A stretch of DNA of 64,000 nt. Source: Gammaproteobacteria bacterium (GTDB lineage: Bacteria; Pseudomonadota; Gammaproteobacteria; Xanthomonadales; SZUA-36). Position numbers and translations under genes: made by a program. Of this stretch, positions 33,109 through 57,979 are shown piece after piece. The notes below the pieces were generated by a model, which saw only the letters and a list, made by a program, of their open reading frames with translations, searched no databases and was not told the DNA's origin. The stretch covers positions 1 through 64,000 of the forward strand of contig JAJRRA010000064.1 of the NCBI GenBank assembly GCA_024279945.1, read 5' to 3'. Numbering within the stretch: the stretch's first letter is position 1; each line of letters opens with the position of its first letter.

Positions 33109-33109
33109 G

Positions 33110-33211: not shown

Positions 33212-33293
33212 TTATTACCGCGGGCGCGGCGCGGGGATTGGAGCGTTGTCGGCGCTTCAAAGCCGACTCTGTGTTTGTGCTTGCCTTCCGGCA

Positions 33294-34742: not shown

Positions 34743-34788
34743 TAGAACATATGTTCTATTTCAGAGTATAATTGGAATGATCGTTCTA
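34743..34788. promoter_or_regulatory. Paired TetR-type operators around a TATAAT box (esterase/VOC divergent promoter)
   Basis: Site 1 is a perfect palindrome TAGAAC-ATAT-GTTCTA (34743-34758). Site 2 is TGGAAT-GATC-GTTCTA (34773-34788), with two half-site mismatches. They are exactly 30 bp apart and bracket TATAAT at 34767-34772, which would serve the plus-strand VOC/ligase genes. The same pair could repress the leftward esterase genes. The motif recurs at three other cluster B promoters including tetR. Confidence 0.75.
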
Positions 34789-34881
34789 GATCAAGCGCTC
34801 CCTTTAGATTAACGGCGCCCATGCTGCCAACACATTATGGCTGTCCGTACTGAACCGAGAAATCGTGCAAAGGAAAACGAA

Positions 34882-35834
34882 ATGGAAATTGAAGGTATTG
34901 ACCGTGTGGTGATCGGGGTAAAAGACCTGGATAGAGGGATGGAATTCTTCTCCCGACTGCTTGAAGTGGACTTTGTTGAAATAACCGGCCCTGCTCCGGC
35001 AGCAGGGGGCGTGCGCTTTGCTGTCAATCTCGATAAGCACATAGAACTGATCTCACCTGTTTACCCGCTTAAAGACGCTAACCCCCCGAACCCAAAAAGC
35101 TGGCAAGACTTCTTGATGAGCAGGGTGATGGTGCGCTATTCGCAGTCGCTTTCAAGGTCAAGAGTGCAGTCGAAGCTGCTGCTGACCTGGAAAGAAAAGG
35201 AATTGGTATATTAAAGCCCCTGGAGTTGGAAGACATTGAACCTTTTACCAAGTCCAAATGTACGGAAATATTCACGCGGGATGAAGACACATTTGGAGTC
35301 GGAATGGCGTTTTGCGAATATGAGCCCATGACTAAATCGATGGGACCCACCGTCGCGAAGGCACGCAAAGACAGAGTTGAGGGTGTTGACCGTGTGCTTA
35401 TCGCGGTAAAGGATATGGATAAAGCGATGGCATGGTTCTCGAAACTTTTCGACATCAACTTTGATGAAATTACAACAGGCCCCATCAAGGAATCTGCCCT
35501 GGCCAGGGTTGCCATCAGATTCGGCAAGCAAGTGGAGTTGATCTCACCCGTTTATCCGCTCAAGGATGTTAACCCCCCTGACCCGATAACAATGGCAAAA
35601 CAAATTGAGGAACAGGGTGAGGGCACATTATATGCCCTGGTCTTGAAGGCAAGGGATGCATTCGACACCATAGCTGAAACGGAAAAAAAAGGAATTCGTG
35701 TTGCCGCAACCCTGGAACTGGAGAATATGGAGCCTTACCCGTTTTTCAATTATAAGGAAGTGGTCTTGAACGAAGATGACACGCTTGATGTGAAGATTGG
35801 ATACGCATCGTACGAGTCTAACAAAAAGGAATAA
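34882..35834 (+). pseudogene. Tandem VOC (glyoxalase/dioxygenase-fold) protein with a frameshift
   Basis: Two consecutive VOC domains that are clearly related: GIDRVVIGVKDLDRGMEFFS then ELISPVYPLKD in the first, GVDRVLIAVKDMDKAMAWFS then ELISPVYPLKD in the second. The frame breaks near 35095 in a run of five A; adding one A restores a continuous 317-aa product. A missing base in a homopolymer suggests mutation or sequencing error; a -1 slip on the A-run is less likely. ATG 34882 has AAGGA 7 nt upstream. If read as broken, the second piece (from about 35226) still encodes most of the second domain. Metal ligands and reaction are unclear. Confidence 0.75.
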
Positions 35835-35916
35835 AGTAACTTTTAAATGAGCGGGCATTCCTGATCAGGCAGTAGCGTGATCGTGGCCACGCCAAACAAA
35901 AGAAGGTATTGAAAAA

Positions 35917-37485
35917 ATGAGAGTTATCGATTATTTCGACAAAGGTGTGGAAATCGCGCCGGATCGTGCCGCTATCGTTGCCGGGGATCTGGAATACGAC
36001 TATCGGCAAGCACAGGCTGTAACACACGAAATCGCCGCCGGACTATGGGCTGCCGGCTTCGACCTCGGTCAGCGGGTAGCGATCTATTCCAACAACGATG
36101 CACAGGCCTTCCTCTGCATGCTCGGCCTGTGGCGCGCCGGTGGCATCTGGGTGCCGGCCAATGTGCGCAATGCCCTGCAAAGCAACGTTGATTATTTCAA
36201 TGATGTCGGCGTTCAATGGCTTTTTTATCACAGTGAATTCCAGGAGGATGCGGTAAAACTGCGTGACACCGTACCTACCTTGAAGCATCTCTTTTGCCTC
36301 GATCGCGACTCGGCGGAGCATCCAGCACTGGAGCGGTTGATTGAGGGCGGCCGGGGCACCACGGTCCCAGACTGGGGCGATCCTTTTGGCAATCCCGAAC
36401 AGGTCATAGCCTTGTGGCCCACCGGCGGAACCACTGGCCGATCCAAGGCCGTGATGATGAATAACAGCAGTTGGGGAACAACCACTGAAATCGCTGCGCG
36501 GCACTGGCATTGCGATGATCTGCCGCCGGTGTGCCTGATGGTTGCCCCCATTACGCATGCCGCAGGCGGTATCGCCGTGATGATGACCAATATTGCCGCG
36601 ACCAATGTCATCATGCTCGGTTTCGATGCTTTGCAAGTGATGCAGAATATAGAAAAGCACCACGTTACCCATTTGTTTTTACCGCCCACCGCTTACTACG
36701 CGATGCTGGCCCATCCACAGGTAAGGGACTTCGACTATTCCAGCCTGCGCTATTTCATGGTTTCCTCCGCGCCAGTGGCTGCGGACAAACTGAAACAGGG
36801 TCTCGAAATATTCGGCCCGTGCCTGTGCCAGTCCTTTGGGCAAGCGGAATCGCCGGTGATTCTGACCTGGAACAGCCCCGAAACCATCGCTGCAGCCGGG
36901 GCCGGCAAACACCCGGAACGCCTGCACAGTTGCGGAAAAGAAACCTATCCGGTGCGGGTCGCTGTGATGGATGATGAGGGTAATCTGTTGCCGCCGGGCG
37001 AGCGCGGTGAAATTGTGGCGCGTGGATCCCTGGTGACGCCGGGATATTACAACAATCCCGAAGCCACCGCCGAGATCCGGACCTTCGGCTGGCACCATAC
37101 CGGCGACATTGGCTATAAAGATGAATACGGTTATTTCTACATCGTCGATCGTAAAAAGGACATGATCATCAGCGGCGGTTTCAATGTCTATTCAGTTGAA
37201 GTGGAGGCAGCGATCCTCGCCATGCCGGCAATCAGGGAATGCGCCGTCATTGGCGTGCCGGATGAAAAGTGGGGGGAAGCAGTCAAGGCCATCGTGATCC
37301 TGAAGGAAGGCGCAGTTCTCGATGAAGGCAACATCCTTGATCACTGCAAGGAAAAGCTCGGCAGTGTCAAGGCGCCGAAAACGGTGGAGTTCCGGGATGA
37401 AATACCCAAAACGCCAACTGGAAAAACCGACAAGAAAGCGCTCCGCAGTCCCTACTGGGCGGATCTGGATCGGGCGGTCCACTAA
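35917..37485 (+). CDS. Acyl-CoA ligase (AMP-binding family), cluster B
   Basis: 522-aa acid:CoA ligase with LWPTGGTTGRSKAVMM (adenylate loop), HTGDIGYKDEYGYFYIVDRK, the hinge DRKKDMIISGGFNVYSVEVE, and the catalytic lysine region PTGKTDKKALR. It follows the VOC gene in the operon behind the paired TetR-type operators. In a ketone-carboxylation pathway a CoA ligase is needed to activate the beta-keto acid (benzoylacetate-CoA ligase in the acetophenone pathway), and this is the best local candidate. It may instead activate another acid. Confidence 0.9.
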   Translation: MRVIDYFDKGVEIAPDRAAIVAGDLEYDYRQAQAVTHEIAAGLWAAGFDLGQRVAIYSNNDAQAFLCMLGLWRAGGIWVPANVRNALQSNVDYFNDVGVQWLFYHSEFQEDAVKLRDTVPTLKHLFCLDRDSAEHPALERLIEGGRGTTVPDWGDPFGNPEQVIALWPTGGTTGRSKAVMMNNSSWGTTTEIAARHWHCDDLPPVCLMVAPITHAAGGIAVMMTNIAATNVIMLGFDALQVMQNIEKHHVTHLFLPPTAYYAMLAHPQVRDFDYSSLRYFMVSSAPVAADKLKQGLEIFGPCLCQSFGQAESPVILTWNSPETIAAAGAGKHPERLHSCGKETYPVRVAVMDDEGNLLPPGERGEIVARGSLVTPGYYNNPEATAEIRTFGWHHTGDIGYKDEYGYFYIVDRKKDMIISGGFNVYSVEVEAAILAMPAIRECAVIGVPDEKWGEAVKAIVILKEGAVLDEGNILDHCKEKLGSVKAPKTVEFRDEIPKTPTGKTDKKALRSPYWADLDRAVH

Positions 37486-37588
37486 GCAACCAATTGAAAG
37501 CCGCGCGTTGACTAATTGAAAGAGCAATCCCGCCTCCTACCCAATCTGGTGAAATTTGGTCTAACTCTCACAAATTATCTTTAATATT

Positions 37589-37615
37589 CGGCACGGTTCA
37601 ATCTTGGGCGTGCCG
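37589..37615. terminator. Candidate bidirectional terminator
   Basis: CGGCACG and CGTGCCG (7-bp arms, 13-nt loop) between the convergent ligase and higA genes. Neither side has a good T-tract, so termination is uncertain. Confidence 0.35.
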
Positions 37616-37619
37616 CATG

Positions 37620-37910
37620 CTATATACCCGCAGCGACAAGTGGCTGAACATGATGATCAGGACGATTTGCTGACAAATCGTGAATTGCCTGCAGGTTTAG
37701 CCAAAACTCCGGAGAGGTATTAAGTGCTTCGGCTAATAACCAGGCCGTTGCAGGTGTAATCCCACGTTTGCCACGTATGATTTCGTTACTCCGCTGTAAA
37801 GGAACACCAACATGCATGGCCAATGCTTTTTGAGTTAACTCAAGCGGTTCAAGAAATTCTTTGCGCAGAATAATACCTGGGTGTGTTGCCGTTCTGTTTA
37901 GTGGAATCAT
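37620..37910 (-). CDS. higA: HigA-family antitoxin
   Basis: XRE-type helix-turn-helix antitoxin of 96 aa. It has the family's HPGIILRKEFLEPLELTQKA N-terminus and the GKRGITPATAWLLAEAL recognition region. It neutralises the HigB toxin encoded 14 bp upstream and represses the operon. The order toxin then antitoxin is typical of higBA. Confidence 0.9.
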   Translation of the reverse strand: MIPLNRTATHPGIILRKEFLEPLELTQKALAMHVGVPLQRSNEIIRGKRGITPATAWLLAEALNTSPEFWLNLQAIHDLSANRPDHHVQPLVAAGI

Positions 37911-37924
37911 AAGTCACCTCACTC

Positions 37925-38215
37925 TTAGTGATAGTCCGTTATTTGGACATCATGTGCTGCATTTGAGTCCCAACGGAATACAATGCGCCATTGGGAGTTG
38001 ATACGGATACTACAAAAACCCTTGAGATTCCCTTTAAGTTGCTCGAGCCTGTTGCCAGGTGGAGACTTGAGATCATCAAGATTTTGGGCGGCATTTATCA
38101 CATCAAGTTTGTACAGAGCAGGTTCGTGAATCTGGTTCGGCAGTTTGCGAACCCGACGGCTTGCTACGCCGTGATACAGATCAGCTGTCGCCTTGTCCCC
38201 AAATGAAACAATCAT
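37925..38215 (-). CDS. higB: HigB-family toxin (RelE-like mRNA interferase)
   Basis: Small basic RelE/HigB-fold protein, which in this family cuts mRNA on the ribosome. The 96 aa from ATG 38215 include LYKLDVINAAQNLDDLKSPP and INSQWRIVFRWDS, typical of HigB. An in-frame start 12 codons upstream would overlap the palindromic operator, so the shorter start is chosen. It sits between the ligase and TonB-receptor genes as an independent stability module. Confidence 0.88.
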   Translation of the reverse strand: MIVSFGDKATADLYHGVASRRVRKLPNQIHEPALYKLDVINAAQNLDDLKSPPGNRLEQLKGNLKGFCSIRINSQWRIVFRWDSNAAHDVQITDYH

Positions 38216-38230
38216 AATGCCGATATTAAC

Positions 38231-38245
38231 GGATACACGGTATCC
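38231..38245. promoter_or_regulatory. Palindromic higBA operator
   Basis: GGATAC-ACG-GTATCC, perfect 6-bp arms, 16 bp upstream of the higB start. This is the expected place for autorepression by HigA. Confidence 0.65.
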
Positions 38246-38382
38246 ATGCAATTGCTAAAATAGTGCAAAACGGAGCAATCACCGGCAAGTAGGAAACCAG
38301 GTCATTGATGCCCGTTTTTCGGCGGCGGTGATGTGCACATCATTGCTCAAAGATTTTAATGCCCATTCGCTAGCTGCATGAA

Positions 38383-40620: not shown

Positions 40621-40676
40621 TTTATCCTCCTGCTGGAAATACACGGCGGACCATTGTTAGTTCATGTTTTAAGATT

Positions 40677-40705
40677 AGTATAGAACGAACGTTCTATACA
40701 GTAAA
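40677..40705 (-). promoter_or_regulatory. Sigma70-like promoter with TetR-type operator in its spacer (TonB receptor)
   Basis: On the minus strand: TTTACT (-35), a spacer of exactly 17 nt, and TATACT (-10). The palindrome at 40678-40699 (perfect 10-bp arms around AA) contains TAGAAC-GAAC-GTTCTA at 40681-40696 and fills the spacer. Bound repressor would exclude RNA polymerase. The gene start is 57 bp downstream. Confidence 0.75.
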
Positions 40706-40844
40706 GTGGATTTTTTATCTGGGTCTTACTCCGGTTTGAAGAAAGCTGGCAGAGGACTTCATGCGAGTACGGATTCGCAGCAACACCGAACAGGTGGAAA
40801 AGAATTTCTTTGCTACCGCCTTCTGCTTATTTTAAGAACTATTG

Positions 40845-41984
40845 TTATCTGGAAAGTACAACGATTGTGCAGGATTTGGTATCGCCCTTGCGGTCGCCGC
40901 CCATGCAGTGGGCAAGACCAGTCTTGCAGTTTGCTACCTGGCGCGAGCCTGCTTCCTGGCGTAATTGCAGCACCAGTTCTGCTATCTGGGCAATGCCGGT
41001 TGCCGCCACCGGATGACCCCGGCTCAGCAAGCCTCCTGATGCATTCACGGGTATGCGCCCGCCCAGAGACGTTGCACCGGAGGCCACCAGGGCGCCGCCT
41101 TCTCCCGGACGACACAGGCCAAGACCTTCATAGTGCATGATCTCAGCAATGGTGAAGGCATCGTGGCATTCCACCAGATCGAGATCCCCCGGTCCAATAC
41201 CCGCTTGTTCGTAGGCCTGCTCTGCTGTCCGGCTATCCGTTTCCCAGCAGGCGATATCTGCCTGATTTTCATAGGATCCAGAAGTCAGTACTGCAGCATC
41301 GATTCGAATGCCGCGCTCAAGTCGCGCTGCGTAGTCATCACTGGCCAGCAGCAGGGCGGCCGCACCGTCGGCTATGGGGCAACACTGGGAGCGGGTAAGC
41401 GGATCGGCGATCAGCGGTGATGCGAGAATTTCATCAATTGTTTCCGGGGTTCGAAATTGAGCAAGAGGGTTGAGCGCTGCTTGTTTTCTGCTCTTGACCG
41501 TGACGGCAGCAAGCTGTTCTCTGGTCGTCCCGAATTCGTACATATGGCGCTGCGCCCGCATGGCAAAGCCTGCTGGTGTGACCATGCCAAGTTGCGTGTC
41601 CAATTCGTTCGCTCCGGAATCGATCAGACCCAACTCCGGCACACACATCTTCTCCGACCCAATGACCAGGGCGAGGTCTGATTGACCGGCCGCGATACAG
41701 GACTGGGCAAGATAAAATGCGGTTGAGCCGGAGGTGCAGGCGTTTTCTGTATTGATAACCGGGATTTGACTGAGCCCCAGTTCGGCAAATACATTCTGAC
41801 CAATGGTCATGTCGCCAAAAAGTTTTGCCCCCAGCGCATTGGCAAAAAAACCGACACCGACTTGTGCAAAATTCACGTTTGCATCTCGCATGGCCCCAAG
41901 ACCCGCTTCCACGGCCATTGAGACGATCGAGCGACCCGGTTTGCGACCGAATGCGATGACACTGGCGCCGATGATCATAGCCAT
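40845..41984 (-). CDS. Thiolase-fold acyl-CoA acetyltransferase (SCP2-thiolase-like)
   Basis: Thiolase family protein that would cleave a beta-ketoacyl-CoA with CoA. The nucleophile Cys is in ENACTSGSTAF (about residue 83), with ECHDAFTIAE and GGLLSRGHPVAATG carrying the conserved His residues. From ATG 41984 the protein is 379 aa. It overlaps the DUF35 gene end and is the last gene of the carboxylase operon. Thiolases of this type usually act with a DUF35 partner, encoded here just upstream. In a carboxylation pathway it would split the 3-oxoacyl-CoA (for example benzoylacetyl-CoA) to benzoyl-CoA and acetyl-CoA; substrate is inferred. Confidence 0.88.
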   Translation of the reverse strand: MAMIIGASVIAFGRKPGRSIVSMAVEAGLGAMRDANVNFAQVGVGFFANALGAKLFGDMTIGQNVFAELGLSQIPVINTENACTSGSTAFYLAQSCIAAGQSDLALVIGSEKMCVPELGLIDSGANELDTQLGMVTPAGFAMRAQRHMYEFGTTREQLAAVTVKSRKQAALNPLAQFRTPETIDEILASPLIADPLTRSQCCPIADGAAALLLASDDYAARLERGIRIDAAVLTSGSYENQADIACWETDSRTAEQAYEQAGIGPGDLDLVECHDAFTIAEIMHYEGLGLCRPGEGGALVASGATSLGGRIPVNASGGLLSRGHPVAATGIAQIAELVLQLRQEAGSRQVANCKTGLAHCMGGDRKGDTKSCTIVVLSR

Positions 41985-41989
41985 GGTAT

Positions 41990-42448
41990 TCAGAAATCTC
42001 TGTTTTCTGGAAGCAACTGGAAAAATGGACGCAAGCAATCCTGCCCCACATTGTTGATGCCCAACTGACCTACACTGAGCCGGACACCGGCACCGATGGC
42101 GATGTCCCCGGTTTGTTCGGGATCCAGCAGGCAGAACACGCGTAGGGGAACATCCTTGAGGTCAATATAGGCCACGGCGTAGGGTTGCGGCAGTCCAAGG
42201 GGCGGCCTGGTGCGCACAACGGTAAAACTGTAAATCACGCCATCAGTACCAAGACCAACCAGTCTTGTGTCCGCGTGGCAACGATGACAGTGTTCCGATT
42301 GTGGAAAGGAATAGTCATCACAAGCATCACAGTAACCACCCAAAAGTTCGAACTGTTCGGGGTCTCCTGCAGAGGACGCAAAAATATTATTTGCTACCGG
42401 GGGTGACTCTGTCTCTTTGGCGGGCGCTTCCTGAAGATCGATGGTCAT
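41990..42448 (-). CDS. DUF35 zinc-ribbon/OB-fold protein, thiolase partner
   Basis: 152-aa acyl-CoA-associated protein. The N-terminal rubredoxin-like zinc ribbon has CDACDDYSFPQSEHCHRC (two CxxC pairs), followed by an OB-fold with GVIYSFTVVR and VAYIDLKDVPLRVFC. DUF35 proteins bind thiolases and channel CoA intermediates. The thiolase start overlaps this gene's end, which fits a stable complex. Confidence 0.87.
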   Translation of the reverse strand: MTIDLQEAPAKETESPPVANNIFASSAGDPEQFELLGGYCDACDDYSFPQSEHCHRCHADTRLVGLGTDGVIYSFTVVRTRPPLGLPQPYAVAYIDLKDVPLRVFCLLDPEQTGDIAIGAGVRLSVGQLGINNVGQDCLRPFFQLLPENRDF

Positions 42449-42466
42449 TTTGTTGTTTCTTCCTGC

Positions 42467-44527
42467 TTATGAGTCCGATAAACCAGCTTCAGGATCGGGA
42501 TAACTACCGTAGTAGGTCAGAAGTTCTGCCGGTGGAGACAATTGCTCCCACTCTTCAACAAACTCGTCATAAGGTTTGCCGCGTTTCTTTCTTTCTTCAC
42601 GAACCTCCATGCGGAGTGCCTCTGTGGCAGGGGAATCGAGCCGTAAACTTTCTCCGTCATAGGCCACATGATAGATATTGCGTGCAGCCCAGTGTGAAAC
42701 CAGCCCCCGGCGCAAGTCCCGGATCACGGCTGCCGGTTCACGCTCAATGGCATCACCATAACCACCGCCACCTCCCACACCCAGGTAGTAAGTATCACCA
42801 TTGGCAAAGGGGCGTACCGTCATATTGGTCTCATTAAAATGGCGATCACCCTGTTCAGGGTTTTCCGCTTCATAAACCGCTGTCAGATTATTTGGTAATC
42901 GGGAATCCGCCTCTGACATCAGTTCATTCAAATTGCTGTTGTGTACGTACTGAACAAAGGTTGGAGGGACAGCATTGCCGCCAAACAGTCCCAGCGTCGT
43001 CGGGAACCTCGTGCCCCCACCCATGGCTCCCAGCACCAGCATGGGCGTGTCATGCACCATCAATCCAAAACCAACACCGGCGCCACCGCGAAACTTGCCA
43101 TGACCGTATGAATTATTGAACAGATTGCGAAATGTATAAACGAAGGGGCGGTCTTCTTCAGTGGTTTCGATATCACTGCAGTCGCTCATGGTGGCGAAAA
43201 AAGCACCGGCAGCATCAACGCCGTCCTGGTCGTAACGCGCTCCACAGCCGGTCGCATTGATCTCCGGGGTCAAATCGGCAATGGGTTCACCCTTTTGATT
43301 GAGTCCGCCAAAGTTGGGGATGGCGAAACCGCTGAACCAAGCTGCCACGGCCCGTGACGGATCATGGCTATAAGTCATGCGTGCGCCACACAGAAACATG
43401 CCTTGGGTAAAACAAATCTGTGTCAGCGGTGCCAGTGATGTGGATACATCCCCTTTCGCATTGACCAGGCTGTTGTCCGGGAACTTCCAGTCCACCGCTT
43501 CCAACAAACCGTTGTTGGCAGGCAGGTCGTGAAACAACCAGCCGCAGAAATACACCATGGTCAGGCCGATGAGGCCCTGAAAATACGTATTGATGGGACG
43601 GTCCATGGCCATCGGTGAGCTGTTGCTGAAATCCAGCAGCACCCGTTCGCCTTTCTTGACTACCGTCAGGTTGATTTTTGTCAGGCCGGGCGCCGTGCCC
43701 AGCGAGTCCAGAAATCGAGGTTGCCGAAAAACACCATCATTCAGCTCAGCTATTTTTTTCCTCGCCGCCTCACCGGTCACGGTCAGGGTCTTGCGCAGAG
43801 CCCCGATAAAGAAATCAACGCCCTTGTCTGCAACGACCTCCTGGATTCGCCGCTGCGCGATACGCACGGCGGCAAGCCGCGCCTTGATGTCCAGAATCAT
43901 GGTGCGCTCATCACGAGTCATTGCTCCCAGCATGGTGAGCAGATCTTCTTTAAGCCGAAAGTTCTCACCGATCTTGATCGGAGGGATCAACATGCCCTCG
44001 TCGTACTTACTCCTGGCGGACGTAATCACGCCGCCCGGTTCTGTTCCCCCGGCTTCCCCGGTATGTACGGCGGCCCCGACAAAACAAATCAATTCGTCGC
44101 CGTGGAACACCGGTATGGCGAGGCCCATATCCGCATTGTGTACACCACCATAGAAGGGATCGTTATAAAAGAAGCTGTCCCCCTCACGAACCCCTACCGA
44201 GGCTTCATCCGCCCAGTGCTTAACAATGTACTTGAGCGGTATCTGCCCGAGTACCGCGTGATGGTAGATTCCTGTCGCACATACAGCTAAATCACCCTGT
44301 GCGGTAAAAATCCCAAAGGCGACATCCCCAAAACGCATGGCTGTAGATGCCCCCAGTTTCATCGTGGTCTCCTTCCCCTCCAGGGCAATCATATGCATTT
44401 TGTGCTTGAAGATATCGAAATCGATATCCTGTACCGCGCCCTGTGCAAGTTGTTCCCTGTCGGTAACGGGTTCAGGACGCAATCGCTGCACTACCTCATA
44501 ATCACGACCATAACTGGTTTTACTCAT
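42467..44527 (-). CDS. HyuB-type subunit of an acetophenone-carboxylase-like enzyme
   Basis: Beta-type (HyuB/acetone carboxylase alpha-like) subunit of 686 aa. Landmarks are FYNDPFYGGVHNADMGLA, DFSNSSPMAMDRPINTYFQG, SYGHGKFRGGAGVGFG and GVGGGGGYGDA. Its size and its neighbours match the 75-kDa subunit of acetophenone carboxylase from the Aromatoleum/Azoarcus group. It lacks the fused C-terminal zinc domain seen in the cluster A homologue; a separate gamma gene supplies that here. It starts 2 nt after the hyuA stop. Confidence 0.9.
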   Translation of the reverse strand: MSKTSYGRDYEVVQRLRPEPVTDREQLAQGAVQDIDFDIFKHKMHMIALEGKETTMKLGASTAMRFGDVAFGIFTAQGDLAVCATGIYHHAVLGQIPLKYIVKHWADEASVGVREGDSFFYNDPFYGGVHNADMGLAIPVFHGDELICFVGAAVHTGEAGGTEPGGVITSARSKYDEGMLIPPIKIGENFRLKEDLLTMLGAMTRDERTMILDIKARLAAVRIAQRRIQEVVADKGVDFFIGALRKTLTVTGEAARKKIAELNDGVFRQPRFLDSLGTAPGLTKINLTVVKKGERVLLDFSNSSPMAMDRPINTYFQGLIGLTMVYFCGWLFHDLPANNGLLEAVDWKFPDNSLVNAKGDVSTSLAPLTQICFTQGMFLCGARMTYSHDPSRAVAAWFSGFAIPNFGGLNQKGEPIADLTPEINATGCGARYDQDGVDAAGAFFATMSDCSDIETTEEDRPFVYTFRNLFNNSYGHGKFRGGAGVGFGLMVHDTPMLVLGAMGGGTRFPTTLGLFGGNAVPPTFVQYVHNSNLNELMSEADSRLPNNLTAVYEAENPEQGDRHFNETNMTVRPFANGDTYYLGVGGGGGYGDAIEREPAAVIRDLRRGLVSHWAARNIYHVAYDGESLRLDSPATEALRMEVREERKKRGKPYDEFVEEWEQLSPPAELLTYYGSYPDPEAGLSDS

Positions 44528-44529
44528 AA

Positions 44530-46698
44530 CTAATGATCTCCCGGACCGGTAGCTGTTTCAATGACAGCGCTGCCCCAATTATCCAGTGTGAACCTCCACC
44601 CATGGGCGACGACATAGGTAGTTTGTGCCGCCTCAACAATTGCGGGGCCCCTGATCCGGTTACCCGGTCGCAACAACGAGTAGTCGTAGATCGGGGTATC
44701 GGTAAATCCCTGTTGTGGATCCCAGTACACCGGTCTGAGACACAGCAATGCTGCACTATCCGGTTCCGGCCCAGCCGGATCGGCTGCCTGCAGTGAAAGC
44801 GCAGGCTTGATGATGGAGGCGGTCAGATGAAATGTTTCAACATTGATGCCACCACTGGGGAAGGTCGCTTCCGGTGAGTAGATTTCCGAATACCGCTGGG
44901 TAAAGGAATCGCACAGCGTACCGACATCCTCTGAATTCTTCAGGAACAGGGCCGGGGCTTCTACGCTGGTCAGTTTGTACTGGCTGCCATAGCGCATTTC
45001 CAGTTCGAGATTGAAACCTATTTCGTTTTCATCGTAACCTTCCAGCTTGAGGTCACGGATTGCCGATTTCTTCATTGACGTAACCACGCTGTTGAATACC
45101 GCGAGATCCTGCAGATATTTCTGTTCAGCCCAGTTATACATTCTGATGGCCCGCGAACGTTCCCACACTTCCTTTATCTGCATGGTTGAGGCGCCGAAAG
45201 CGCCGAACACGGAAGACTGACCCGGCACCAGTATTCTTTGTGTCCCGATATAGGGCGCATACCCACAGGCATGCGCACCACCCGCACCTCCACAGGCCAG
45301 CAGGATAAAGTTACGTGGATCGTGGCCTTTCAATGAAACTTCGTTGTATACCTCATGGCCCATACGGGCATCGACCAGTCGGCGTATGCGCCAGGCCGCC
45401 TCCAGTGGATCAATACCGAGCGGCCCGGCAATTTTTTCGGAAATAACATCGTGAGCAAGATCGACATCCAGCAACATCTCACCACCCAGATAGTTTTCCG
45501 GGTTATAGAGTCCCAACAACAGATCTGCATCGGTCACCGTGGGGTCCTGTCCACCCTGGTCGTAACAAGCCGGTCCCGGCATGGCGCCCGCCGATTGGGG
45601 CCCCACTTCCATGGCATTGTCCATCAAGGTATTGATCCAGGCGATGGAGCCACCTCCGGCACCGATTGACTTGACCTCGATGGCAGGAATATTGGTCCGC
45701 CAGCGATCAATGACAGGAATAAACTCATGGGTCTTGATCTCACCTTTTTCGATCAGGCCGATATCAAAAGAAGTTCCACCCATGTCGGTAAAGATAATAT
45801 TGTGCTCGTCATTCAACCGGCCCAGTGTGGCCGCCCCATGCAGACCCGCTACCGGTCCCGCATTATGGGTGAGAACAGCGCGTGTGCGTGAGGCTTTCTT
45901 GGTTCCGCCGGTGTTGTGCACCAAAGTCAGGGGGCGTGTATACCCATGGTCCCGTAATTCATTGGCCAGCGCGTTAATTTCATCGCTCATGACACCGTGA
46001 ATATAGGAATTAACCACCGCTGTCATGGTCCGCGTGTATTCTCCGGCCTTGGGCGAAATGGCTGATGACAGGATCACCGGCATGGAACCGAGATAATCTT
46101 CGGGATATTCATCTTCGATGATGTCCCGGATCATCTTTTCATGCTGAGGATTGATGAATGACCACAACAAGGACACGACAAAACCCTGTGCGCCCTTGTC
46201 TACCAGTTCCTGCAGTTTTTCCAGTACTTCTTCCCGCTGTAACGGAGTAATCACCTTGCCGCTGTAGTCGAGACGTTCACGGACGCCAACCACCATTTCC
46301 GGTTCAATCAGCGGTTCCGGTTTCTGAATACGGGCCTGATCCCGGCACTGCTGCAAACTAAGGCCATCGGCCCAGCTACGGGCGCGTCCAATAAAGATCG
46401 TGTCTTCGAACCCGGCCGTGGTGAACAGGCCCAGCTTGGGGCCGTTGCGCTCGATCAGGACATTGGTACCCACCGTGGTGGAATACCGCAGAGATACGAT
46501 CTGACCAAGAAAGGCATCGAAAGGCAGTTTATGGACCTCGGCCAGTTGGCGTATACCCTGCATAAACCCGACCGACAGGTCATAGTGGGTAGTAGGAGTC
46601 TTGGTCGTAATGGCTACACCATCTGCGGCACAATAAAAATCGGTAAAGGTGCCGCCGACATCGATGCCAACGGTGTACTGTATGGAATTGTTCATCAT
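44530..46698 (-). CDS. HyuA-type subunit (second, larger) of the carboxylase
   Basis: ASKHA-type ATPase subunit of about 722 aa: TVGIDVGGTFTD at the N-terminus, TTVGTNVLIERNG, TDMGGTSFDIGLIEKG and KSIGAGGGSIAWI. It differs clearly from the other HyuA at 47998, so the enzyme would contain two non-identical HyuA subunits, a hallmark of acetophenone carboxylase (alpha and alpha-prime). ATG 46698 is chosen over TTG 46716; the upstream gene's stop lies between them. Confidence 0.9.
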   Translation of the reverse strand: MMNNSIQYTVGIDVGGTFTDFYCAADGVAITTKTPTTHYDLSVGFMQGIRQLAEVHKLPFDAFLGQIVSLRYSTTVGTNVLIERNGPKLGLFTTAGFEDTIFIGRARSWADGLSLQQCRDQARIQKPEPLIEPEMVVGVRERLDYSGKVITPLQREEVLEKLQELVDKGAQGFVVSLLWSFINPQHEKMIRDIIEDEYPEDYLGSMPVILSSAISPKAGEYTRTMTAVVNSYIHGVMSDEINALANELRDHGYTRPLTLVHNTGGTKKASRTRAVLTHNAGPVAGLHGAATLGRLNDEHNIIFTDMGGTSFDIGLIEKGEIKTHEFIPVIDRWRTNIPAIEVKSIGAGGGSIAWINTLMDNAMEVGPQSAGAMPGPACYDQGGQDPTVTDADLLLGLYNPENYLGGEMLLDVDLAHDVISEKIAGPLGIDPLEAAWRIRRLVDARMGHEVYNEVSLKGHDPRNFILLACGGAGGAHACGYAPYIGTQRILVPGQSSVFGAFGASTMQIKEVWERSRAIRMYNWAEQKYLQDLAVFNSVVTSMKKSAIRDLKLEGYDENEIGFNLELEMRYGSQYKLTSVEAPALFLKNSEDVGTLCDSFTQRYSEIYSPEATFPSGGINVETFHLTASIIKPALSLQAADPAGPEPDSAALLCLRPVYWDPQQGFTDTPIYDYSLLRPGNRIRGPAIVEAAQTTYVVAHGWRFTLDNWGSAVIETATGPGDH

Positions 46699-46709
46699 CT
46701 GTGATTCCG

Positions 46710-47633
46710 TCAGCAAAAAGACAATAGCCCGCTGGTAATTGCGCGCGCCGTATCCAGATCAGTGTCCCGGGCGAGATCCCCTGGAGTTGTAAACAGAAGG
46801 TTTTTTCCGGCAAGGGTTTTTTTGCACAGCTCAGCATGCGTCAAGGCTTCTGTTACATCACCAAACGGTAGCGCAATGCCAATACCCTTGACACTCTGGG
46901 CCAGGTCCAAAAACAAACCCGGATCAGGGATGGTTCCCTCCGCGGTCTCACCAAAGAAATAAAAATCCATCCTCAGTTTATCGATGCTCGCTAGGGTTTC
47001 CGGCGTGTAGCCTTCGACATAGATGGCGGTCGGGATATCGAAGTACCTGGCGACATTGCGCAGTGTATTGAATGCCTTGCGTTGCGGCATGCCGATATCA
47101 TCTTCACAGATTGCCGGCCCCTCTCTGAACAATAGTAAATCCGGGCGCTTTTGACACAGGGCCTGTGCAATTTCCACGGTAATCTGCTTCAACTCACCGG
47201 CCTGACCATCTGTTGTATCCAACAGCGCCGCCAGGGTAATGGGACCGCTCATCGCCGCAATGCAGCAAAAATCATCACGAACGGTCTGGATCAAGCGGCC
47301 CAGCGCTTCAACGGCTGCTTCCAGGCGACCGTTGATCGCCTCAGTCACTGCAGGCAAAACTCCTGCCTCGACCACGACCGGCTGGTCATCCCGCCACTGC
47401 ACGTCGGCGCCGCAAGCCTCCGCCAGCAAAGTGTCATCAAAACCAAGAATCAGCGCATCGGCCCGGAGCAATTGACCCGCTTTGCCGAGACTGCTGCTCC
47501 AGTGGGCCGGATCACCCGTCATGGACCGGTAGCTCATACCACCCACACGTGCAGCCAGTGGCTCCATTGCCGGCACGAACGCATTTCCGGCGCCCGGCGT
47601 GTTGGCTAAAAATGCATCCATTGCTGAGCGCAT
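46710..47633 (-). CDS. Fifth carboxylase-operon protein, URO-D-like fold (epsilon-subunit candidate)
   Basis: A 307-aa protein with features of the uroporphyrinogen-decarboxylase/corrinoid-methyltransferase superfamily (LRADALILGFDDTLLAEACG, VCCIAAMSG-like and GPAICEDDIGMP segments). It lies between the gamma and second HyuA genes. Acetophenone carboxylase needs a separate subunit of about 34 kDa besides its core; this protein has that mass and position. It is unlikely to act in haem synthesis. The family call is moderate, the epsilon role is inference. Confidence 0.6.
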   Translation of the reverse strand: MRSAMDAFLANTPGAGNAFVPAMEPLAARVGGMSYRSMTGDPAHWSSSLGKAGQLLRADALILGFDDTLLAEACGADVQWRDDQPVVVEAGVLPAVTEAINGRLEAAVEALGRLIQTVRDDFCCIAAMSGPITLAALLDTTDGQAGELKQITVEIAQALCQKRPDLLLFREGPAICEDDIGMPQRKAFNTLRNVARYFDIPTAIYVEGYTPETLASIDKLRMDFYFFGETAEGTIPDPGLFLDLAQSVKGIGIALPFGDVTEALTHAELCKKTLAGKNLLFTTPGDLARDTDLDTARAITSGLLSFC

Positions 47634-47635
47634 GA

Positions 47636-47995
47636 TCAGCCACTCCGTTTATCTGCCGGGCGTTGGTCAGCCTGGCGTGCCTTCAGGGCATCAATATCAA
47701 GTTCGATCTCGTGCGTGATCGGATGACCGGGTGGTAAGTACTCGTTTTCAATCTGGATACCGCAGCCTGGACAATAAAATTCGATTAAACGGCAGAATTC
47801 CTTGTTGGGCGTGAAGTTGAAGTCGGCATCGGGCGCCAGTGGGGGATGTACCTGTTCCAGGGGGTTCTCGTAGACCAAACAACCCTTTTTGTAGTTACCA
47901 CGGGCATCGTAAAGTTCATACCCACACCGGTTGCAGCACCATTTTTCAGTATCGCAGTCGATTTCCAGGTACTCGGTGATGCGCACTTTTCCCAT
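47636..47995 (-). CDS. Acetone/acetophenone carboxylase gamma-like zinc subunit
   Basis: Small protein of 119 aa with CCNRCGYELYD and FYCPGCGIQIENE, a CxxC...CxxC zinc site typical of gamma subunits. It closely resembles the C-terminal extension of the HyuB protein at 4164. ATG 47995 has GGAG 8 nt upstream and the HyuA stop overlaps the region, implying coupling. It is probably structural or needed for assembly of the carboxylase core. Confidence 0.85.
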   Translation of the reverse strand: MGKVRITEYLEIDCDTEKWCCNRCGYELYDARGNYKKGCLVYENPLEQVHPPLAPDADFNFTPNKEFCRLIEFYCPGCGIQIENEYLPPGHPITHEIELDIDALKARQADQRPADKRSG

Positions 47996-47997
47996 CA

Positions 47998-50019
47998 CTA
48001 TTTCTCCGTCAATATGGCATTGTTGAATGGATCAATCTTCATGTTCCAGTTCTGACTGAGCAGCAGGGTAGTCTGGTCTGATTCAATCAGTGCCGGACCG
48101 GCCAGTTCATGCCCATAAGCCAGGCGGCTACGGTCATAAACGGGTACCTCTATGCTGTCCTCGCCCGTAAACAAGCGGCGTCGCATCTTGATGGCATCGT
48201 CAGGATGAGATCGGGTTTTCTCCAGTTCCGTGACCGCCTGGCTCACTCGGCTTGCTTTTACCAGACAAGCGACGGAAGAAAGAACACACGATGCATCACT
48301 TCCGTTTGGATATATCGCGGTTTCGGCCCGTTTGATCAGGTCTTTGAGTACATCACCTTGCCGATAAAAATCGATCTGTGTATCCAGTCGGATTTCCCTG
48401 TTTTCGCCGGTATTCTTGATAAACAACTGTAGGGAATAATTCAACTCGTGCTCTGCGAAGCCTTCGCCGCGCATATCCCGGTCTGCTTCACAGCGCATTT
48501 CCGCAATTGCGCTTTCGAGTTTTTTCGGATCAAATGAATCGTTGAATGGGCCGTCTATACGGCGGTAGTAAATGTGACCAACCTCCATCAGCGAGGATGA
48601 ATAAGCTGAGAAAATAGCTGAAAATGGCGTCATGACAATTTTTCTGATACCAGCAGCAGTGGCAATATCGCAGGCGTGCAGACCACCAGCGCCACCATAG
48701 GCAACAATGACCGCATCGTTTCCATTATTTAAATGACTTGCTGCTTCGGAAACCGCGATACCCAGATCCTTATCCACCTGCTGCTTGATCAGCCAGGCTG
48801 CCTGATCCACCGAAAGACCCAGGGGCCTGGCGATTACTTCATCGACAATAGTGCGCGCCCTGTCGATATGTAACGGCATGCTGCCACCAAGAAAAAATTC
48901 CGGATCGAGTATGCCCAGTATCAAATTGGCATCGGTAACTGTAGGTTGGGAACCACCCAGGTTATATGCCGCCGGACCGGGTAAGGCACCTGCAGACAAT
49001 GGGCCTACCTTAACGCCGCTGCCATCAACTGAAGCAACAGATCCTCCGCCCGTTCCCAGGGCCCGGATCGACAACATGGGCAAATTGCAGCTAAACCCTT
49101 CAACATCGGGCTCCAGAGAATAACTCGGCTTGCCGTCACATGCGTAGGCAATATCCAACGATGTGCCACCCATATCCGTTGAAATGATATTGTTTAATCC
49201 ATAACTCTTTCCGACTTCGCAGGCGCCGAGGAGTCCCGCAGCCGGACCCGAATTGTAGGTATTGACTGCACGGGTCTTGGCAACTCGCGCCACCGTACCG
49301 TTGTTGTGATTGATGAACAGTGTTCCCCGGTACTCCCGTTGACGCAGGTCTTCACCCGCCTTGTACAACAGGCGCGCGAGTTTGGCATGGATATAGGCAT
49401 TCAGCACAGCGGTGTTCATTCGTTGCTGCAGACCCGAGCGCGTGGAAATATCCGAGGAGAGAAAAACCGGCACGGAACCCAGGTAATCACGCGGATATTC
49501 CGCCTTGATGATGCGCCTCACGGCGCGTTCGTTGACCGGATTGATTTCTGCGTTGGCCAGCGCAACCACCAGGCAGCGCGCACCCTGATCAATCAGCGTC
49601 TGTGCCGTAATCAACACGGATTCGGCATCCGGTGCTTCCTCCATGACTCCACCAGAGCTGATCACCTCGTCGATACCTATCACCATATTGGCGTCGATCA
49701 ATGGTGAATTCCCGCTGTCGGCCCTGGCCGGGAAATGGTCTTCCGTCCCCTTCGTCACGATAAGGCCCAGCTTGGAGCCATCGCGCTGAATGATCGTGTT
49801 GGTGCCGATGGTATTGGAAAAACGGACGATGTCCGCGTTATAAAGCAGATCCTGTGCAGTCATGGCAAAAGCCTCGGCCCCCGCCTTAATGCACTCCAGA
49901 AAACAGAGGGTCAAATCATGCGGTGTGGTGGGGACCTGTACCGTTTTTATCTCACCATTACAGGCAAAAAAACCATCGGTGAAAGTGCCGCCGGTATCGA
50001 TATCAATCGTAATAGCCAT
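47998..50019 (-). CDS. HyuA-type subunit (first gene) of the acetophenone-carboxylase-like operon
   Basis: ATPase subunit of about 673 aa: ITIDIDTGGTFTDGF (note D-I-D-T in place of G-I-D-I-G), NTIGTNTIIQRDGSK, TDMGGTSLDIAYA and RALGTGGGSVASV. Its mass of about 72 kDa fits the 70-kDa subunit of acetophenone carboxylase. It is first in a seven-gene minus-strand operon (hyuA, gamma, URO-D-like, hyuA, hyuB, DUF35, thiolase) with almost no gaps. A TetR-type operator lies 69 bp upstream of ATG 50019. TTG 50037 is an alternative start. Confidence 0.9.
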   Translation of the reverse strand: MAITIDIDTGGTFTDGFFACNGEIKTVQVPTTPHDLTLCFLECIKAGAEAFAMTAQDLLYNADIVRFSNTIGTNTIIQRDGSKLGLIVTKGTEDHFPARADSGNSPLIDANMVIGIDEVISSGGVMEEAPDAESVLITAQTLIDQGARCLVVALANAEINPVNERAVRRIIKAEYPRDYLGSVPVFLSSDISTRSGLQQRMNTAVLNAYIHAKLARLLYKAGEDLRQREYRGTLFINHNNGTVARVAKTRAVNTYNSGPAAGLLGACEVGKSYGLNNIISTDMGGTSLDIAYACDGKPSYSLEPDVEGFSCNLPMLSIRALGTGGGSVASVDGSGVKVGPLSAGALPGPAAYNLGGSQPTVTDANLILGILDPEFFLGGSMPLHIDRARTIVDEVIARPLGLSVDQAAWLIKQQVDKDLGIAVSEAASHLNNGNDAVIVAYGGAGGLHACDIATAAGIRKIVMTPFSAIFSAYSSSLMEVGHIYYRRIDGPFNDSFDPKKLESAIAEMRCEADRDMRGEGFAEHELNYSLQLFIKNTGENREIRLDTQIDFYRQGDVLKDLIKRAETAIYPNGSDASCVLSSVACLVKASRVSQAVTELEKTRSHPDDAIKMRRRLFTGEDSIEVPVYDRSRLAYGHELAGPALIESDQTTLLLSQNWNMKIDPFNNAILTEK

Positions 50020-50087
50020 TTCAAATTTCTGACTCAATCGCCAAATCCCTTGCTGAGGTATCCAGAATATATTATTTCTTTCGCGTC

Positions 50088-50103
50088 TAGAACGTTTGTT
50101 CTA
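50088..50103. promoter_or_regulatory. TetR-type operator before the carboxylase operon
   Basis: TAGAAC-GTTT-GTTCTA: both half-sites perfect. It sits upstream of the first carboxylase gene in the same spacing to a -35/-10-like pair (TTCAAT, 17 nt, TAGACG on the minus strand) as at 40677-40705, though these boxes are weak. Confidence 0.75.
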
Positions 50104-50326
50104 CTCATTGAACCATTTCAGGACATGGTCTGTCAAGACTGGAAGTGTCACTGTTAGAGGGGCTCAAGCAACGGTCATCAAACCAGGAACGGTCAATGAT
50201 TTCGTCGCTCAATTGTTGGCGGTCCGGCGAGCGAATGATGCCTGAGGTGGTCCCACTGGCTGTTGGCATCCGATCATGATGGCGCCACACCGTCCCGCAG
50301 GATCACTTGGAAAAAGTGCTATATCA
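50104..50326. other. Non-coding gap between the ThDP enzyme and carboxylase operons
   Basis: A 223-bp space between two minus-strand operons. It holds the transcription end of the ThDP-enzyme gene and the upstream promoter region of hyuA. I see no gene, terminator or repeat in it that I can support. Confidence 0.5.
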
Positions 50327-52075
50327 TTATGCTATTGCTTGTATCCGCTGCTGTTCTGGTTCCGGAAACTGGAAACCATGCAGGATGACGCCGGGCCACA
50401 TGAAGTCCATCGGATGCGGTGTGTACTCCACTTCGACATTGATCACCGCAGGCTTTCCGGCCGTTAAGGCGCGTTGAAATGCTTCGGGTAATGCCTCAAT
50501 TGTAGAAATATTTTCACCGTAGCAACCAACACCCTCGGCAATTTTTGCAAAGTTAACCTTGGTCAATTGCGTACCGAAGTTTGGATTATTCAACATTTCC
50601 CCGAACGGCTTGTACATGCCCCAGTGGCTGTCATTGAGTAACAGGACCACGATATTCAGCCCGTAACGCGCAGCCGTTTCCAGTTCCTGAATGGTTAAAC
50701 CCAGTGCGCCGTCACCGGTAACACAAATCACCGGCCGCTCCGGGTGCGCCAGCTTGGCGGCATTGGCAAAGGGTAAACCGAATCCCAGATGCCCCATGCC
50801 GGGATCGGCCAGAATACGGTTGGGATCATCTGCCTGGATGAAAGTCGTCCCCCACATCATGGCCTGGCCGCCATCGATAATGGTAATGGCATCTTCCGGT
50901 ATCAGTTCGCTGATGGCGCGGGCAACGAGTGCTTCATTCAGCACGCTGCCGCCACCCACTACTTTGGCATTGGCGATAGCTTCAACTGAATCACGATGAT
51001 TTTGCTGCACCTTTTTCAGGGAGCTGATCCAGTCAGGAGCAATATTCGATTCAGGCGCATCGGCAAGCAGGCCCAGCAGGCCCTGCAAGGTGGCCTTCGC
51101 ATCACCGACCAATCCGATGTCAATCGCTGCGGCTTTGCCGATGGATTCAGCATCGATGTCAATCTGAATGATCTTTTGTCCCACAGGTTTCGGGAAGGCA
51201 GGTTCTTTACTGAGTGGTGTGAACGTTCCAAACTTGCAACCCAGGGCCAAAACCACATCTGCATTTTCGCATGCATCGATAACACTCTGACCTGCAACCA
51301 GACCGCCCGAACCGATATTGAGAACACTATCCGGTGCCAGAACGCCCCGGCCCATGATGGTTGAAATGGCGGGAAAACCGGTCGCTTCAAGCAGCGCACG
51401 AAACTCTGCAGTCGCGCCGGAACGGACCACGCCACCACCGGCAATCAGCAGCGGCTTACGAGCACTTAATAAAATTTCCAACACACGCTGCATTTCTTCG
51501 GGACCGGGCATCGGCCGCATCAGTCTGAAGGGGGGTATCGTTGCCAGATCATACTCACACAACTGGGTGCCGACATCGCAGGGAATATCCAGGTGTACCG
51601 GGCCGGGCCGCCCGGATCGCGCAATATGAACGGCGCGTTCAACCAATTCCGGTGCGCGCTCGGCGTGATGTATGCTGGCATTCCACTTGGTAATCGAACG
51701 GAACAGTGCAAGCTGGTCCGCAGATTGCAATTGCTCCCGGCTGGGATCGACCTCGGCGGCCTGATTTTGTCCGGTTATAACCAGCAGTGGAATGTTGTCC
51801 GCATAAGCCGCCGCTACGCCCGGCACCAGATTGGTGGCGCCCGGCCCGACCGTGCCAAAGCAAACCCCCATGGTATCGGTAACCCGGGATATCGCATGGG
51901 CCATATGGCCAGCCGCTTCTTCGTGACGGGTGGTCACATAGCTGAAATCCGGATCGCTTGATGCACCGTGCATAATCAAGCCGATTTGCGCTGCCGGCAA
52001 TCCACAGATATAACGGACGCCATGTTTCTTGAGTATCGCGAGAATTACATCACTTACGGAACCCTGCCATTTCAT
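50327..52075 (-). CDS. ThDP-dependent enzyme (acetolactate synthase/decarboxylase family)
   Basis: Thiamine-diphosphate enzyme of 582 aa. The activating Glu is in TTRHEEAAGHMAHA, PVHLDIPCDV ends the Pyr domain, and the ThDP/Mg motif begins TGDGALGLTIQELE and ends LLNDSHWG. There is no regulatory subunit gene, and the position in a catabolic cluster argues against branched-chain synthesis. Relatives include benzoylformate decarboxylase, oxalyl-CoA decarboxylase and 2-hydroxyacyl-CoA lyase; sequence alone does not decide. It lies 51 bp downstream of tetR on the same strand and is probably co-transcribed. ATG 52075 follows AGGAGG by only 2 nt; TTG 52120 is an alternative. Confidence 0.85.
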   Translation of the reverse strand: MKWQGSVSDVILAILKKHGVRYICGLPAAQIGLIMHGASSDPDFSYVTTRHEEAAGHMAHAISRVTDTMGVCFGTVGPGATNLVPGVAAAYADNIPLLVITGQNQAAEVDPSREQLQSADQLALFRSITKWNASIHHAERAPELVERAVHIARSGRPGPVHLDIPCDVGTQLCEYDLATIPPFRLMRPMPGPEEMQRVLEILLSARKPLLIAGGGVVRSGATAEFRALLEATGFPAISTIMGRGVLAPDSVLNIGSGGLVAGQSVIDACENADVVLALGCKFGTFTPLSKEPAFPKPVGQKIIQIDIDAESIGKAAAIDIGLVGDAKATLQGLLGLLADAPESNIAPDWISSLKKVQQNHRDSVEAIANAKVVGGGSVLNEALVARAISELIPEDAITIIDGGQAMMWGTTFIQADDPNRILADPGMGHLGFGLPFANAAKLAHPERPVICVTGDGALGLTIQELETAARYGLNIVVLLLNDSHWGMYKPFGEMLNNPNFGTQLTKVNFAKIAEGVGCYGENISTIEALPEAFQRALTAGKPAVINVEVEYTPHPMDFMWPGVILHGFQFPEPEQQRIQAIA

Positions 52076-52126
52076 CACCTCCTGATTAAGGGTTAGATTA
52101 CTCCCTGATTCTGATTTCAAGAACGC

Positions 52127-52729
52127 CTACGATTTTCTTGCCTGATCAGTCAACCCAATACCCATTCCGCGTAAAATGTAGTTGACCACCTCGTTACGGA
52201 CGCTCTGTTTCGACATACTCCTGATTTTGTCTTGCCAGCGGAGATGCCAATTGATATTACCCAGTATATTGAATGCCAACACACTCAGGTTGCTACTCTC
52301 GATTACACCCTCGTCCTGCAAAATAAGTAGCTGCTCCGTGTATAAACTGAAAATTTCTTTCTGCACTCGCTGATTGATTTTCTTCCCCCTGCGAGAGAGG
52401 CGTTCTTCATCGATGAAAAAAATCTTGGCTTCACGACGATGCTTCATGGATTCTTTCAGGTGTGCGTGGAGCATCTTGGCAAAGCGTTCAACCGGCTCAC
52501 CTGGCGCCTGCGCCGCGCTCTTTAACAGTTCCGGTATTCCGCTGGCCGAATGCTCAAGAATTGCCAGCCACAGGGCTTCCTTATTTTCAAAATAATGATA
52601 AACATTTGAAACGCTATGGCCAGTCACATTGGCGATATCGCGAATGGATGTACCGGCATATCCATGGGCTGCAAACAGGTCTATTGCCACTTGAATCAAC
52701 TCATCGCGACGGGAATATGCTTTTGCCAC
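52127..52729 (-). CDS. TetR-family repressor of cluster B
   Basis: Regulator of 200 aa from GTG 52729 (GAGG 5 nt upstream; a longer open frame exists to 52825 but lacks a site). The DNA-binding helix-turn-helix is GYAGTSIRDIANVTGHSVSN followed by VYHYFENKEALW, the TetR signature. The C-terminal ligand domain is not assignable. A perfect TAGAAC-N4-GTTCTA palindrome lies 99 bp upstream of its start and the same motif sits at three other cluster B promoters, so it most likely represses the whole cluster and itself. Confidence 0.92.
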   Translation of the reverse strand: MAKAYSRRDELIQVAIDLFAAHGYAGTSIRDIANVTGHSVSNVYHYFENKEALWLAILEHSASGIPELLKSAAQAPGEPVERFAKMLHAHLKESMKHRREAKIFFIDEERLSRRGKKINQRVQKEIFSLYTEQLLILQDEGVIESSNLSVLAFNILGNINWHLRWQDKIRSMSKQSVRNEVVNYILRGMGIGLTDQARKS

Positions 52730-52827
52730 AACAACCTCGTTAGTATGTTTTACGCTTTTTAGCAGAAAAGCCCTGTTGCAGGGCATCACCAGAACAGCCA
52801 TAGTGGCATTTGATAAAAGCATCAATC

Positions 52828-52843
52828 TAGAACAACCGTTCTA
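52828..52843. promoter_or_regulatory. TetR-type operator of the tetR gene
   Basis: TAGAAC-AACC-GTTCTA, perfect half-sites, in the gap between bzdR and tetR. It gives tetR its own autoregulated promoter, separate from the upstream korA-bzdR operon. Confidence 0.78.
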
Positions 52844-53738: not shown

Positions 53739-53749
53739 GATCTGCTGGA

Positions 53750-54817: not shown

Positions 54818-54860
54818 AATTTACTCCTGATTAGTATTACTTCCAGTTCGGTTTTGACTG

Positions 54861-57954: not shown

Positions 57955-57979
57955 TGCAGCTTCTCCTTATAGAATATGC

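Follow-up and report, generated by a model that had tools for sequence, protein, structure and literature searches.

A predicted TetR regulon with a TAGAAC-N4-GTTCTA operator in the ketone-degradation cluster of a gammaproteobacterium

Background

Which regulator reads the palindrome TAGAAC-N4-GTTCTA, which recurs in front of the genes of a putative ketone-degradation cluster in a gammaproteobacterium, and how far does its control extend? The cluster lies on contig JAJRRA010000064.1 of assembly GCA_024279945.1 (Xanthomonadales, SZUA-36), of which the first 64,000 nucleotides, here called the window, were analysed. A preliminary description, made from the letters and open reading frames (ORFs), proposed that one TetR repressor switches uptake, carboxylation, activation and thiolysis together through this operator. 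The comparison across genomes supports a single TetR regulon spanning the cluster, and we assign a probability of roughly 0.87 to the whole explanation, namely an autoregulated local repressor which would act by steric exclusion and let go of the DNA in response to a metabolite of the pathway. As a prediction it is well supported, and the kind of regulon is a known one.

The palindrome in the window and in the genome

A motif scan of the window recovered all five copies given in the preliminary description, four of them perfect and one degenerate. They are listed below together with the regulator gene, the operators without strand.

34743-34758: operator O1, perfect, between the esterase side (minus strand) and the VOC/ligase operon (plus strand); motif scan
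34773-34788: operator O2, degenerate with two mismatches, 30 bp from O1; motif and promoter scans
40681-40696: perfect operator in the TonB-receptor promoter TTTACT-N17-TATACT; motif and promoter scans
50088-50103: perfect operator of the apc (carboxylase) operon, with TTGACA at 50136-50131 and TTCAAT at 50112-50107 on the minus strand; motif scan and sequence
52828-52843: perfect operator of tetR, with TTGACA at 52876-52871 and TGTAAT at 52852-52847 on the minus strand; motif scan and sequence
52127-52729, minus strand: TetR regulator (TetR_N and TetR_C_24) with a GTG start; family models, alignment and structure model

The genome itself (3.92 Mb) holds exactly four perfect copies, every one inside the window, against an expectation of 0.001 for the window and 0.06 for the genome under an order-1 model of window composition. 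The spacing is equally specific, as TAGAAC-Nk-GTTCTA is found in the window four times at k=4 and not once at k=0-3 or 5-8. In a sample of 339 genomes of the class, nine carry a perfect site: the present genome has its four, and the other 338 have nine sites in eight genomes, with at most two each.

The genome-wide scan with one mismatch allowed, which had been suggested as a check, adds to the perfect sites a single copy (C77:18680) inside a 570-amino-acid ORF. Two-mismatch sites number 43, two of them in the window (6837 and 34773). At up to two mismatches the motif has 48 sites in the genome and a reversed control pattern 135, so the weak matches are not enriched, nor are the 16 matches found in the window at three mismatches (14.84 expected from shuffles). 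Relaxed scans of the genome at two to three mismatches were at or below chance and revealed no further regulon members. The signal of the motif resides in the perfect sites.

The same distinction holds for position. None of the four perfect sites falls within a likely gene, as had been claimed; the site at 50088 is covered only by a mechanical antisense ORF (49735-50157), and since this overlaps apcA, the site was taken as intergenic. Weak sites outside the window are mostly intragenic (37 of 42 inside ORFs of at least 100 amino acids). A check on intragenic frequency thus separates the two classes: the perfect sites lie outside likely genes, and the two-mismatch sites are positioned as by chance.

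The TetR regulator and its orthologues

The regulator has the domains expected of its family, an N-terminal helix-turn-helix (PF00440, E 6.5e-13) and a helical C-terminal domain (PF17932, E 9e-12). Scanning genome contigs with this protein, we kept 80 loci, of which 13 (L022-L034) were considered orthologues, being 50-79% identical by tblastn and 48-79% in an alignment of the stretches used, and the other 67 less related, with 27-49% identity along the whole protein or a part of it. Among 369 genomes sampled from the class, five TetR matches besides the genome's own were found at E <= 1e-15, and one of these (G120, 42% identical) also precedes an apc operon.

The palindrome follows the regulator gene across these genomes. 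It occurs within 400 bp upstream of tetR in all 13 orthologue loci; at up to two mismatches, 25 of 27 matches are in tetR-upstream sequence, which makes up 5.2 kb of the 180 kb in these loci, and at up to one mismatch all 23 matches lie within 400 bp upstream of the gene. The binomial value for this placement, 1e-36, is overstated, as the loci are related. Gene order is conserved as well, with apcA directly after tetR in 12 of the 13 loci, and in the longer stretches apcB, apcE, apcC, apcD and the genes for the ligase, the OB-fold protein and the thiolase come next (apcE is weak in L030 and L031 and was not detected in the compared stretches of L032 and L033). In the thirteenth locus (L022, genome G369), tetR is followed by the gene of a thiamine diphosphate (ThDP)-dependent enzyme, as in the window, and apcA lies on another contig with a perfect site of its own. 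These data support control of tetR and apc by the predicted operator in all 13 orthologue loci.

Could a different TetR encoded in the genome, or a pair of competing regulators, recognise the palindrome instead, within a wider subfamily sharing a very similar operator? We consider this unlikely, even if it is the best of the alternatives. Such a subfamily is suggested by the less related loci, 43 of which have a copy with up to two mismatches within 400 bp upstream, none of them perfect. However, among the 15 places in the genome that match the TetR at E <= 1, from a search with 21 candidates at first look and limited to TetRs close enough to match, the YHYFENKE region occurs only in the protein encoded in the window; the second-best match, at 30% identity, has IYHHFDSKEA there. 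The site moreover goes with this tetR from genome to genome.

Operators and promoters

The operators overlap promoter-like sequence, and their positions fit repression. The promoters of tetR and apcA have a common module, TTGACA-N18-hexamer-N3-operator, with TGTAAT and TTCAAT respectively as -10-like hexamers. TTGACA stands at the same -33 geometry in both of these window promoters, in L022-L026 and at both sites of L118. Among 15 tetR genes compared (the window's, the 13 orthologues and L129), TTGACA lies 29-38 bp upstream of the operator nearest tetR, matching at six of six bases in 14 and at five of six in L027. Neither window promoter is listed by the consensus promoter scan, whose rule their -10 hexamers fail. 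In the TonB-receptor promoter, the operator had been described as exactly filling the 17-nucleotide spacer at 40677-40705; it actually covers 14 of the 17 spacer bases and the first two bases of TATACT. On the esterase side, O2 lies in a minus-strand TTGATC-N18-TATACT, where it occupies 16 of 18 spacer bases, and it directly follows a TATAAT on the plus strand. A terminator-like hairpin (52770-52784, minus strand; 0.4 expected) was also observed between the start of tetR and the operator before it.

The TetR might also be an activator, or a mixed regulator, at some promoters. Several Alphaproteobacteria have two or three sites, reaching up to about 290-310 bp upstream, from where upstream action or looping would be possible. 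Each operator in the window nevertheless overlaps promoter-like sequence, and the far alphaproteobacterial sites adjoin a divergent hydrolase/SDR gene pair, which leaves this alternative improbable and marginally behind the preceding one. That the repeats are a non-regulatory element, mobile or structural, is suggested by four copies in 18 kb and was rejected as extremely improbable, the central four bases being different in all four perfect copies, every copy lying upstream of genes and divergent species keeping copies before the same gene, tetR.

Extent of the regulon

Two other gammaproteobacteria have extra sites before cluster genes. The nearest relative (G369) has three perfect sites: one at tetR, one in the divergent promoter shared by a TonB-receptor gene and apcA, and one flanked by the ThDP gene and a LuxR-type gene. 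In G370, tetR has a perfect site, and a pair of one-mismatch sites with a spacing of 30 bp stands ahead of a TonB-receptor gene, followed by esterase and ligase genes. The tandem spacing of 30 bp is thus found both at the VOC/ligase operon of the window and at the TonB receptor in L121, and in both a TTGAC abuts the first operator (plus strand in the window). In the nearest relative, the LuxR-type regulator gene (L118:1308-2462) lies 110 bp past a perfect operator.

The extra sites in G369 and G370 are in line with the proposed reach of the regulon to receptor, esterase and ligase, and support for these members beyond the window comes from gammaproteobacteria only. In several Alphaproteobacteria the two or three sites extend to about 280-310 bp upstream of tetR, the far ones beside the divergent hydrolase/SDR pair (families read for genes of L026 and L028).

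Fourteen genomes searched at up to one mismatch gave 37 sites, comprising 23 upstream of tetR, four at other cluster promoters and ten elsewhere. Eight of these ten, all but G379 C25 and G120 C52, were inspected; five are inside ORFs (G369 C21, G370 C15 and C302, G371, G374) and three, in G375, G377 and G372, are not clearly so. The G377 site is 38 kb from its own tetR, between genes of the Asp/Glu racemase and PhyH families.

Several observations weigh against a single repressor governing the whole cluster. In none of the 14 genomes does the motif at up to one mismatch outnumber the reversed pattern, so that the signal lies in the placing of the sites and not in their number. O2, taken on its own, is within chance, and the consensus promoter scan has two finds, close to what shuffled sequence gives (0.4 and 0.7 per region), which makes single promoters no more than suggestive; the conserved geometry appears the stronger point. 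Some of the orthologues are near-identical and hence not independent, and in L129, a distant relative at 42%, the only site has two mismatches. Across the alphaproteobacterial stretches inspected, sites were seen only at tetR and near the divergent hydrolase/SDR pair; the TonB-receptor gene in L130 has no operator, and in G375 an unlinked one-mismatch site precedes a metallopeptidase gene. Finally, TetR folds are so alike that the fold neighbours tell little about the effector: the structure model (mean pLDDT, predicted local distance difference test, 82.7) resembles many TetR proteins, with Z 16.2-18.7 among the best 50 matches listed, from a comparison covering the 1000 chains ranked highest by Foldseek. 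Counting for the proposal, these neighbours include MbdR, KstR2, AibR and FadR; AibR is CoA-ester-responsive by the title of its structure entry and MbdR according to PMC4424350. KstR2 and FadR are CoA-ester-responsive regulators as well.

Genes of the cluster

The genes assigned to the predicted regulon, besides tetR, are the following.

32958-33461, minus strand: SDR fragment; family match over residues 7-57 only
33465-34424, minus strand: alpha/beta hydrolase (esterase); PF07859
34429-34716, minus strand: 95-amino-acid ORF whose start resembles a signal peptide by eye; the first ORF on the esterase side, between operator and esterase
34837-35214, plus strand: VOC/glyoxalase-fold protein; family search
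35226-35834, plus strand: second VOC protein; family search
35917-37485, plus strand: acyl-CoA ligase (AMP-binding); family search, 74% identical gene in L121
38383-40644, minus strand: TonB-dependent receptor; family search
40845-42038, minus strand: thiolase; family search
41990-42448, minus strand: OB-fold (ChsH2-type) protein beside the thiolase; family search
42467-44527, minus strand: apcD-like (hydantoinase B); 5l9w_A, delta subunit, E 1.2e-114
44530-46716, minus strand: apcC-like (hydantoinase A); 5l9w_B, gamma subunit, E 3.2e-182
46710-47633, minus strand: apcE-like; 9fou, epsilon subunit, E 1e-4 (weak), sole match at E <= 0.01
47636-47998, minus strand: apcB-like (acetone carboxylase gamma family); PF08882
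47998-50037, minus strand: apcA-like (hydantoinase A); 5l9w gamma and alpha subunits, E 3.7e-111 and 4.6e-99
50327-52120, minus strand: ThDP-dependent enzyme, 6 bases downstream of tetR; family search

Operators precede the esterase, VOC/ligase, TonB-receptor, carboxylase and tetR/ThDP genes, in agreement with the preliminary description; what it had called an SDR gene appears to be a fragment. The fragment adjoins a gene for a DUF4143 ATPase (31918-33084), and an intact SDR of 258 amino acids is present in the divergent pair of L026. Counterparts of the esterase gene are 77% identical in L121 and 47% in L118.

Relatives of all five subunits of acetophenone carboxylase are encoded in one operon, with a weak match for the E subunit, and by sequence the enzyme appears to resemble that five-subunit carboxylase. 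At 6509-8584 (minus strand) the window encodes another protein of the hydantoinase-A type, which shares 34% identity with the ApcC-like protein, and four more near-full-length relatives are found elsewhere in the genome.

An anaerobic bcr-type benzoyl-CoA cluster adjoins at 52857-63826, with bcrC, bcrB, bcrA, dch, oah, had and a BoxR-like regulator (helix-turn-helix and shikimate kinase) recognised by NCBIfam models above cut-off, together with a ferritin-like protein and a two-subunit 2-oxoacid oxidoreductase. Control of these genes by the same TetR was considered and rejected, the 53-64 kb part of the window giving only three-mismatch matches to the operator; the predicted regulon stops short of them.

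In the Aromatoleum pathway, from which the likely chemistry of the present cluster is taken, the ketone is converted to a beta-keto acid, then to its CoA ester, and finally to aroyl-CoA and acetyl-CoA. This sequence of reactions is in line with PMC4729919 as far as its excerpts go. Judging by the genes for the receptor, the esterase, the VOC proteins and the ThDP enzyme, the actual starting compound may be a larger precursor.

Operators of related TetR proteins

In the 67 less related loci, 59 of 63 matches at up to two mismatches lie within 400 bp upstream of the matched gene, and most of the 40 copies listed read GHIYHYFENKEAI or nearly so. These loci were picked partly by the peptide YHYFENKE, and their share is uninformative for TetRs at large; it suggests that the recognition region may fix the operator. 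Within the alignment of 15 proteins, the helix-turn-helix region SIRDIA...S-SN-YHYF is nearly invariant. TetRs with IYHYFENKEAI from Azoarcus, Thauera, Stenotrophomonas and others (L040, L041, L044, L047, L071, L090, L092, L100) have one-mismatch copies, frequently as tandem pairs or runs, some 110-170 bp ahead of the matched start.

Proposed mechanism and significance

From the positions of the operators, their conservation, the synteny of the genes and the overlap with promoter-like sequence, we infer how binding and repression might proceed. A TetR dimer would bind TAGAAC-N4-GTTCTA just past the -10 hexamer and across the transcription start at the tetR-ThDP and apc operons, and in the spacer separating -35 from -10 in the TonB-receptor promoter and in that of the esterase side. 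The divergent VOC-ligase/esterase region would hold two dimers at a distance of 30 bp, about three helical turns. Bound in this way, the TetR would keep RNA polymerase off these promoters. The TetR would be released when its C-terminal domain binds a metabolite of the pathway, perhaps a CoA thioester formed by the ligase, with aroylacetyl-CoA or aroyl-CoA as the likeliest. Outer-membrane uptake, ester cleavage, ATP-dependent carboxylation of a methyl ketone, CoA activation and thiolysis would then be induced together, and the resulting aroyl-CoA would feed the neighbouring benzoyl-CoA pathway, whose genes lack the operator and include a BoxR/BzdR-like regulator gene of their own.

A broader proposal, which we hold tentatively and at somewhat less than even odds, is that these proteins form an undescribed orthologous group of TetRs for aromatic-ketone carboxylase clusters of alpha- and gammaproteobacteria, sensing a CoA intermediate, that the wider YHYFENKE subfamily predicts the operator TAGAAY-N4-RTTCTA, and that the co-regulated TonB receptor and esterase serve a larger precursor. 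Searches of open-access papers in PubMed Central brought up no description of this regulon, and other papers may contain one. The present case would provide a regulon, bounded and testable, for a cluster with an ATP-dependent ketone carboxylase, the studied case of Aromatoleum aromaticum being attributed to two-component systems in the excerpts of PMC4729919. Tying the TonB receptor and the esterase to the pathway hints at a natural substrate larger than acetophenone, and operator and regulator could together serve as a biosensor for ketones or aryl-CoA. If true over many TetRs, the link between recognition region and operator would help to predict regulons elsewhere.

Comparison with known systems

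The published systems are compared here as they appear in excerpts of the papers cited. A close parallel is MbdR of Azoarcus sp. CIB, a TetR repressor of the genes for anaerobic 3-methylbenzoate degradation, which has 3-methylbenzoyl-CoA as inducer and operators over -10/+1, and which its authors called the first TetR among the aromatic-CoA-sensing regulators controlling anaerobic aromatic catabolism (PMC4424350). In both systems a TetR protein, a repressor in the case of MbdR and a predicted one here, has operators at several promoters within a single aromatic cluster, among them the promoter of a CoA ligase. The folds are similar, MbdR ranking among the best structural matches (4uds, Z 18.0, 184 residues aligned, root-mean-square deviation 2.7) with 18% identity over the aligned residues, whereas the operators differ, being ATAC-N10-GTAT for MbdR (PMC4424350) and TAGAAC-N4-GTTCTA at the four present sites.

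KstR of mycobacteria recognises a 14-bp palindrome, TAGAAC-N2-GTTCTA, with the same half-sites, and has a catabolic regulon of many promoters with autoregulation (PMC1995591). Its spacer has two bases and the present one four, and KstR governs an actinobacterial lipid-degradation regulon (PMC1995591). A KstR operator was rejected on this spacing, a spacer of two occurring zero times in the window and one of four occurring four times.

The FadP and LiuQ regulons, comparatively predicted for betaproteobacterial TetRs of CoA-linked catabolism (PMC5343134), are similar in kind, a comparison made without their motifs.

As for the genes, the apc-bal operon of A. aromaticum encodes ApcABCDE, a CoA ligase and a potential thiolase (PMC4729919), and carboxylase subunits A-E, a CoA ligase and a thiolase are likewise encoded in the present cluster. 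The regulators of apc-bal are predicted two-component systems, adiRS for acetophenone (PMC4729919), whereas a TetR is found here; the present order is A-B-E-C-D, unlike that of apc-bal, and a TonB receptor, a ThDP enzyme and an esterase are placed under the same predicted operator. The present system looks like a further MbdR-like case with a different operator.

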